Source: a bacterium
GTDB lineage: Bacteria; B130-G9
DNA: 6,432 nucleotides
Direction: 5' to 3'
Assembly (NCBI GenBank): GCA_021160245.1
Contig: JAGHCW010000096.1
Coordinates: 1-6,432, forward strand
The position numbers and the translations under genes are program-made. How positions within the stretch are numbered: the stretch's first letter is position 1; each line of letters starts with the position of its first letter. Below are positions 1,658 through 3,966 of the stretch, one piece after another. The notes under the pieces were generated by a model. That model had not been told where the DNA came from. It saw only the letters and a list, made by a program, of their open reading frames with translations, and did not search any database.

Positions 1658-1707
1658 TGGAGTGCGGTGGCTTGACACCGCTTTGGCTCGCCGCGGCTTG
1701 ACGCGGC
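1658..1707 (+). repeat. Tandem pair of REP palindromes (GGAG family)
   Basis: Two hairpins lie 8 bases apart. The first starts with the GGAG head at 1659 and pairs GCGGTG (1664-1669) with CACCGC (1676-1681). The second pairs GCCGCG (1690-1695) with CGCGGC (1702-1707). Both stems are perfect 6-bp matches around the same loop GCTTGA, although their stem sequences differ. The first shares 19 identical bases (1658-1676) with the copy at 2366-2384. A GGAG or GTAG tetranucleotide beside a short hairpin is the known recognition layout of RAYT transposases, and a RAYT gene lies next door. The pair sits 57 bases before the glycosyltransferase start codon. Confidence 0.8.
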
Positions 1708-1779
1708 ATTGGCTACTATAAATCGGTTTCTTCATCCGCATCGGCTCTCATAAGGCAAGAAGAGAAATTCATTATAGCT

Positions 1780-1805
1780 GCGGCGTGAACCCGCCGCACT
1801 CCAAA
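1780..1805 (-). repeat. REP palindrome, inverted copy abutting the RAYT frame
   Basis: On the minus strand this reads TTTGGAGTGC (1805-1796) and continues into a perfect 6-bp stem, GCGGCG (1797-1792) with CGCCGC (1785-1780), around the 6-base loop GGTTCA. The loop differs from GCTTGA of the other copies at two positions. The GGAG head is at 1802-1799. It is inverted relative to the pair at 1658-1707, giving the head-opposed arrangement of BIME elements. It starts directly after the TGA (1806-1808) that closes the extended transposase frame. Confidence 0.75.
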
Positions 1806-1892
1806 TCAGAAATCGTCGATTACGTTAACTCGATCCGTTTTGAATCCGGAGACAGATTCTCTGAATCCCTTTTCTGCAGTGCGCTCAAACTA
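1806..1892 (-). pseudogene. C-terminal tail of the RAYT transposase beyond an in-frame TAG
   Basis: Past the TAG at 1892-1890 the same frame stays open for 27 codons, to a TGA at 1808-1806. The tail begins FERTAEKGF and ends GFKTDRVNVIDDF. As I recall the family, RAYT proteins of this subgroup carry a WFER...SFKTDRLN...DDF ending just after the CSA motif. The TAG therefore sits where a conserved tryptophan (TGG) is expected, so one base change would explain it. With the tail the protein would be about 176 residues. The reading frame and stop positions are seen directly; the comparison with the family tail is from memory. Confidence 0.65.
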
Positions 1893-2336
1893 AGAAGCCG
1901 AACAGTACGGGTATTGCTTGGCCTCTTCGACTAAACGGTGATGAACTGCGTTGTTATTCACATAATTCAGGCGGGCCAGAATAGATCGCTCGAACGTAAG
2001 CTCTGTGTCCCAATACTGAAACCATACTTTGCGTCCTGGAGCAGTATCAAGGCGGTTGATGTATATCGCTGTGAGTGTATGCAGTTTGGAGATCATGCGC
2101 CTGATTGACTCTGGATAGTCGCGCAGAATCGCTACGAAATGATAATGGTTCGAGAAAACTGCCCAGGCTTGCAGCTGTAACTCGAACTCGCCGGCCAACT
2201 CCAGCAAACGGTCGTGAAGGAATGCGAGTTTTCCGGGAGTGTTGAAGAACTTCTGTTTCCCATAGGCGCCGGCCGTGACGATATACGTCCCTCTCTCGCT
2301 AAACCTGTGGACCGGAGAATGCGGCCACTGTCTCAT
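1890..2336 (-). CDS. REP-associated tyrosine transposase (RAYT, Y1 HUH family), probably C-terminally shortened
   Basis: A 148-residue single-strand DNA transposase related to IS200/IS605 TnpA, expected to cut and rejoin REP hairpins. Family hallmarks in order: RFSERGTYIVTAGAYGKQ (11-28), the metal-binding HUH motif in SNHYHF (H64, H66), KVWFQYWDTELTFE (103-116), and LNYVNNNAVHHRLV (123-136), where Y125 is the likely nucleophile. All predicted catalytic residues precede the stop. I start at ATG 2336, with an AAAGGGG purine tract 5 bases upstream. The longer frame from ATG 2402 merely translates the REP palindrome at 2367-2394 as its first residues. The TAG at 1890 looks premature (see the tail entry), so the product may be inactive or shortened. 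GGAG palindromes flank it on both sides. It follows the MTH1187-family gene on the same strand. Confidence 0.88.
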   Translation of the reverse strand: MRQWPHSPVHRFSERGTYIVTAGAYGKQKFFNTPGKLAFLHDRLLELAGEFELQLQAWAVFSNHYHFVAILRDYPESIRRMISKLHTLTAIYINRLDTAPGRKVWFQYWDTELTFERSILARLNYVNNNAVHHRLVEEAKQYPYCSAS

Positions 2337-2345
2337 GACAACCCC

Positions 2346-2394
2346 TTTGGAGTGCAACCTCCGTTTGGAGTGCGGTGGCTTGACGCCGCACTCC
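2346..2394 (+). repeat. REP palindrome with a half-copy, upstream of the RAYT gene
   Basis: The full copy (2367-2394) is the best hairpin of the family. Outer arms GGAGT (2367-2371) and ACTCC (2390-2394) extend the stem GCGGTG/CGCCGC around loop GCTTGA (2378-2383), giving 11 pairs with one G-T wobble. A truncated copy precedes it: TTTGGAGTGC occurs at 2346-2355 and again at 2364-2373. The hairpin begins 8 bases after the stop of the MTH1187-family gene, so in RNA it could stabilise or end that transcript. It also lies in the 5' leader of the transposase, 30 bases from its start codon. Confidence 0.82.
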
Positions 2395-3888: not shown

Positions 3889-3957
3889 TGGCAGGCTGGA
3901 AAGCCCGCCCTACACAGCAAATTGCATCTCAGTGGCAGGCTGGAAAGCCCGTCCTGC
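3889..3957 (-). repeat. Two copies of a second, GTAG-headed REP-like palindrome
   Basis: Copies at 3889-3913 and 3933-3957 are 44 bases apart and share 19 identical bases, TGGCAGGCTGGAAAGCCCG on the plus strand. On the minus strand the first begins GTAGGGCGGGCTTTCC and the second begins GCAGGACGGGC. Each folds into an 8-position stem around a 4-base loop: copy 1 has one mismatch; copy 2 has the same mismatch plus one wobble. A GTAG head with an imperfect palindrome is the classical REP layout. The sequence is unrelated to the GGAG family around the transposase. The copies fill the gap between the dehydratase gene and pta. Confidence 0.75.
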
Positions 3958-3966
3958 GCCGCAAAA

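Follow-up and report, generated by a model that had tools for sequence, protein, structure and literature searches.

Most of what is known about REP/RAYT systems concerns GTAG-tagged repeats, best described in Gammaproteobacteria. Published REP tags are GTAG with its close variants, and CGTC (PMC3733652, PMC6006769, PMC2817692). Members of the GTAG and CGTC REP superfamilies are short stem-loops, tagged at one end by 4 nt and scattered in many copies (PMC3733652). In the described RAYT (TnpA_REP) REPtrons (PMC2817692, PMC6006769; structure 4ER8), a small Y1 HUH protein is encoded by a single genomic copy, the gene is flanked by inverted tagged hairpins, and hairpins of this kind are dispersed intergenically. 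Two inverted REPs forming one unit are described as REPINs (Bertels and Rainey 2011, PMC3116915). Subclass 2.8 of the TnpAY1 proteins of Corneloup, from Cyanobacteria, has the motifs NHYH, W[YH] and YIHYNP and the tag GT[AG]G (PMC6006769).

The window, which is the whole 6,432-nt stretch of DNA analysed, is an entire contig of a 3.43-Mb, 244-contig draft genome (G000; 95% complete), and is read as carrying a degenerate REPtron of an apparently undescribed GGAG-tagged RAYT/REP clade. The protein type, the single gene copy, the flanking hairpins and their intergenic dispersal were as in the described REPtrons; the tag was GGAG(T) instead of GTAG or GTGG, and the gene copy was truncated. Identity between E. 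coli TnpA_REP and the window RAYT was about 18% in a structural alignment. The clade resembled subclass 2.8, by motifs alone, in NHYH, W[YF] and long REPs next to the gene, but differed from it in the Y motif (mostly YVHxNP or YVNNNA), in distribution (mainly Verrucomicrobia and Planctomycetes, plus other phyla) and in having GGAG, not GT[AG]G, as the tag. Many copies were paired as in REPINs but, unlike those, had a second inner hairpin at each end, and many lay at the core of a TIR-bounded MITE. Their form and dispersal agreed with the GTAG and CGTC superfamilies, whereas GGAG falls outside the tags GYAG, GYRG, GTRG, GTMG, GTGG, CGTC, TGTC and CCTC (PMC3733652); the GTAG or GYRG-type tag of the GTAG superfamily was absent from these REPs. 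Neither a GGAG-tagged REP class nor GGAGTGCGG was found in the open-access papers searched, to which the claim of novelty is limited.

The RAYT gene as now read (1890–2336, minus strand) started with ATG at 2336 and encoded 148 aa, with the HUH motif NHYH at residues 63–66 (HYH at 64–66), the catalytic Tyr125 and a premature TAG end. Both NHYH and Tyr125 were invariant across a 21-sequence alignment of the RAYT clade. NCBIfam NF047646 (REP-associated tyrosine transposase) scored 68.9 bits with the window RAYT (cutoff 80) and matched all 21 clade members at E ≤ 0.001; Pfam PF01797 matched the window RAYT below its cutoff only. A phmmer search of the PDB with the single RAYT sequence gave no relevant match; the clade profile found E. 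coli TnpA_REP (4ER8) at E 1.4e-8, and 4ER8 was the best PDB fold match (E 2.7e-8) to an AlphaFold2 model of the protein (pLDDT 88). The gene is a RAYT, of the TnpA_REP-type Y1 HUH transposases, with 4ER8 as its closest solved structure. The first-pass annotation, which had placed a Y1 HUH transposase gene between hairpins, was right about the enzyme; the frame itself is broken by the TAG at 1890–1892.

Around the gene, the four hairpins already reported at 1659–1681, 1690–1707, 1780–1802 and 2367–2394 were all confirmed base by base and by ssDNA folding against dinucleotide shuffles, as were the GCTTGA loop in three of them and the GGAG head in three. Folding was better than in the shuffles (z −2.4, −3.3 and −4.5, the last for 2367–2394). 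The 5′ REP of the gene (2367–2394, both strands; GGAGTGCGGTG-[GCTTGA]-CGCCGCACTCC) was a near-perfect palindrome of 28 bp, headed by GGAG on either strand, and had a stem of 11 pairs, one of them a G.T wobble; this 28-bp form also occurred at L001 and L003. A fifth, degenerate head (GGAGTGCAACCTCC, 2349–2362, plus strand), additional to the four hairpins, adjoined the 5′ REP, and the module as a whole spanned 1659–2394. Distant relatives (L148, L159 and L194) also had a doubled head of this kind, in which a truncated GGAGTGC preceded the complete REP next to the RAYT gene by 13–20 nt.

On the other side, a 144-bp REPIN-like element (1659–1802) comprised two inverted GGAG-headed outer REPs, an inner hairpin and a spacer. 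The outer REP at 1659–1681 (plus strand) read GGAG-T-GCGGTG-[GCTTGA]-CACCGC, with a 6-bp stem followed by TTT, and a CT exactly at the 3′ foot of the hairpin (GC/TTT). The inner hairpin at 1690–1707 (plus strand), GCCGCG-[GCTTGA]-CGCGGC, was without a GGAG head. The REP at 1780–1802 (minus strand), GGAG-T-GCGGCG-[GGTTCA]-CGCCGC, was the 3′ REP of the RAYT gene. Elsewhere in this genome about 11 further paired copies had the same layout, a second hairpin recurred at the place of the inner one in other copies, and the nearest copy (L017) was 86% identical over 78 nt on the left and identical at 26/26 nt on the right. The stretch 1659–1802 is one REPIN, not two loose hairpins.

Copies across the genome were counted by pattern search. 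The pattern GGAGTGCGGYG-N6-CRCCGC gave 28 exact matches at 25 distinct sites (three near-perfect palindromes being counted twice), about 40 sites with at most one mismatch, and 102 matches with three mismatches allowed, against 46 for the reversed pattern. A looser head-tail pattern gave 25 matches and its reversed control 0. The possibility of only a few copies, which the first-pass annotation had named as telling against its reading, proved false. The matches were mostly inverted pairs 110–150 bp apart, that is, REPINs of ~120–172 bp, many with the second inner hairpin at each end. Intergenic placement, also anticipated, was borne out: 2 of 35 REP elements fell within an ORF of 150 aa or more, whereas 71% of random positions of the same size did. 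The REPs are a genome-wide, mostly intergenic family with inverted pairs.

Relatives of the window RAYT were found at 80 loci (47–58% identity) from about a dozen phyla; the records carried the labels Verrucomicrobia, Lentisphaerae, Planctomycetes, Armatimonadetes/Chthonomonas, Acidobacteria, Chloroflexi, WOR-3, Marinimicrobia, Hydrogenedentes, Sumerlaeota, Zixibacteria and Proteobacteria. The motif GGAG[TA]GC lay within 400 nt of the RAYT in 74 of the 80, which upholds the earlier proposal that the palindromes are likely cognate REPs with GGAG as a guide-like tag. Its density was 267 sites in 61 kb near the relatives, against 123 in 320 kb further off. When a hairpin was required as well (stem of at least 6 bp), 62 of the 80 loci still had GGAG hairpins, 205 in total where shuffled flanks had 7. 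Among tetramers preceding a hairpin in the relatives' flanks, GGAG was the most frequent (97/546). The four free stem pairs were Watson-Crick in 66–70 of 70 distinct sites, against shuffled means of 31–54, and the stems therefore vary between lineages with compensation. A 3′ GGAG head began 3–4 nt past the stop codon in 12 of the 80 relatives.

At the genome level, 32 of the 40 genomes with a RAYT relative had at least one strict head-tail REP match, and up to 89. The 141 genomes of other groups had mostly 0–1 strict REPs, with the exceptions of G042 (19) and G122 (21). With the clade profile, G042 gave 20 Y1 matches, most of them to longer proteins of a different type, and G122, with its 21 strict REPs, had one weak, distant Y1 match; a second RAYT group with GGAG tags is possible in these two genomes. 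That the GGAG REPs are cognate to this RAYT clade is well supported, as is the family membership of both enzyme and repeats.

The window is thus read, with good probability, as a REPtron in which the RAYT gene is bounded by its cognate REPs and the clade's tag is GGAG(T), not GTAG. Direct support for this reading comes from the homology, the layout, the number of copies, their intergenic position and the compensatory stem changes. Binding, cleavage and mobility in the GGAG system would be as in the TnpA_REP proteins of E. coli, Stenotrophomonas and Marinomonas: by this analogy the enzyme would bind the single-stranded REP hairpin, with the tetranucleotide, which retains the last two bases A3G4 in GGAG, serving as guide. 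It would then nick at a CT beside the hairpin, for which the CT at the 3′ foot is a candidate, and two inverted REPs would leave and move as one REPIN unit. In this genome a large part of today's REPs is carried in a TIR-bounded MITE whose core is a REPIN.

The flanks of many REPINs were themselves repeated and revealed a larger MITE-like element of ~320 bp, most full copies measuring about 302–328 bp. Its TIRs are close to CCCGAAAAATCAGATTGA, and the REPIN occupies a constant internal place. Such elements with a REPIN core were found at L001, L029, L048/L037, L034, L097, L201, L216 and other loci in G000, G001 and G003. In G000, 21 of 39 REP elements adjoined or sat inside the MITE (TIR at least 14/19 within 330 nt), against 2 of 400 windows of shuffled sequence; the TIR pattern had 45 matches in G000, 70 in G001 and 57 in G003, and 0–1 in controls. 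Exact target duplications of at least 4 bp accompanied 6 of 23 TIR-bounded elements, against 3 of 506 mismatched pairs, and so marked some copies, not most; three of them, in REP-containing copies, were of 5 bp (TGATG, ATCTA and CGTTA). Because TIRs occurred together with target duplications, the transposase of the MITE would be of the DDE type, and because many REPs are carried in the element, another transposase would have spread them at least in part. In G001, elements L208–L213 shared the TIR and size of this MITE but had at their core a different, non-REP palindrome. Other repeats were also observed: two copies of a 33-nt repeat (TGGCAGGCTGGAAAGCCCGCCCTACACAGCAAA; 88% alike, 44 nt start to start) at 3889–3965 of the window, upstream of a phosphotransacetylase gene, with similar sequence near REPs at L085 and L099; and another palindromic repeat, GTAGGGGCGGG...CTCCGCCC, adjoining REP elements or MITE arms at L011 and L091 of G000.

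Strict REPs were more numerous in the three other genomes of the family (31, 31 and 94 in G001–G003) than in G000 (25). A RAYT of this clade was not found in these 83–95% complete draft MAGs, whether searched with a single sequence, the Pfam model or the clade profile, and weaker Y1 matches in G002 and G003 belonged to other types. At face value, then, hairpins occurred in relatives lacking the transposase, which the first-pass annotation had held to speak against it; absence of the gene is not proven, since the drafts are incomplete and contigs often break at REPs, many of those in G003 lying within about 200 bp of contig ends. Because no such RAYT was found in these REP-rich relatives and over half of the REP elements are tied to the MITE, most copies cannot be credited to the window RAYT, which by itself does not account for the abundance of REPs in the lineage. 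The description of the module as self-contained is not supported, for the same two reasons.

These results give some room to the view that REPs of the lineage are now no more than hairpins inside a MITE that a conventional, DDE-type transposase moves in trans, the RAYT being an unrelated passenger and its flanking REPs coincidental landings. The frequency of TIRs beside REP elements, the same MITE in G001 and G003, the exact 5-bp duplications in three REP-containing copies and the plentiful REPs where no such RAYT was found all favour it. It is nevertheless unlikely, as the same GGAGTGC hairpins flank RAYT relatives in about a dozen phyla, the 3′ REP recurs at its fixed short distance from their stop codons, and the TIR search of REP flanks found no MITE TIR at the window's own REPs. 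A combination with the REPtron reading may be entertained tentatively, at less than even chances: a TIR/TSD MITE would have taken up GGAG REPINs as its core, and one repeat family would be spread by single-strand Y1 and double-strand DDE-type chemistry, with REPs persisting and multiplying after loss of the RAYT.

Within the REPtron reading, the state of the gene bears on present activity. Residues 1–148 were open, and at the codon for Trp149, invariant in the rest of the 21-sequence alignment, the window RAYT had TAG. Beyond it the frame ran on for 27 further recognisable residues, this former C-terminal tail (1806–1889, minus strand) closing at TGA 1806–1808. The TGA is supported as the ancestral stop because the 3′ GGAG head starts 3 nt past it, as in relatives. 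The TAG removed 28 C-terminal residues, and with them two predicted helices (147–153 and 156–164). E. coli TnpA_REP was impaired in binding and cleavage when shortened by 21 or 34 C-terminal residues, whereas loss of only 13 raised its activity (PMC8266576). Since the tail loss is comparable to the impairing truncations, the window copy is probably defective. The missing intact coding sequence bears on the activity of this copy, not on its ancestry.

The opposite case, that the truncated RAYT is still functional through a dispensable tail or TAG readthrough, with the system active or domesticated in this host, has in its favour a tail still in frame and recognisable after the TAG, and a relative in Luteolibacter marinus (L159) with TAG at the same Trp codon and the tail likewise preserved. 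It is quite improbable, given the invariance of Trp149 elsewhere in the alignment, the loss of both helices and the impaired E. coli truncations; general recoding of TAG was rejected, as TAG also ends the neighbouring phosphotransacetylase gene (stop 2812–2814). Another relative (L173) had TAG at a different conserved Trp codon. That the window and L159 share the position of their TAG, in a set of about 80 sequences, may reflect chance or tolerance of tail loss. Activity of the RAYT/REP system in this host is not supported, and the earlier suggestion of recent activity gives way to a nonsense codon at an invariant Trp and a RAYT that was the only copy of its clade found in the genome.

A role of the hairpins as ordinary transcription terminators, or as RNA elements unlinked to transposition, which their intergenic position and GC-rich stems followed by TTT might suggest, is hardly credible in view of the fixed GGAGT head, the paired inverted copies, the RAYT linkage across phyla, and searches that returned no terminator-like call and no Rfam match at the window hairpins.

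Because a GGAG class has stayed with one RAYT clade across about a dozen phyla and shares only the first base and the last two bases with the GTAG class, comparison of the two classes is a natural way to test how cleavage is guided by the tag. REPs borne by a MITE could survive the loss of their transposase; if so, an abundance of REPs should be taken with caution as a sign of RAYT activity.
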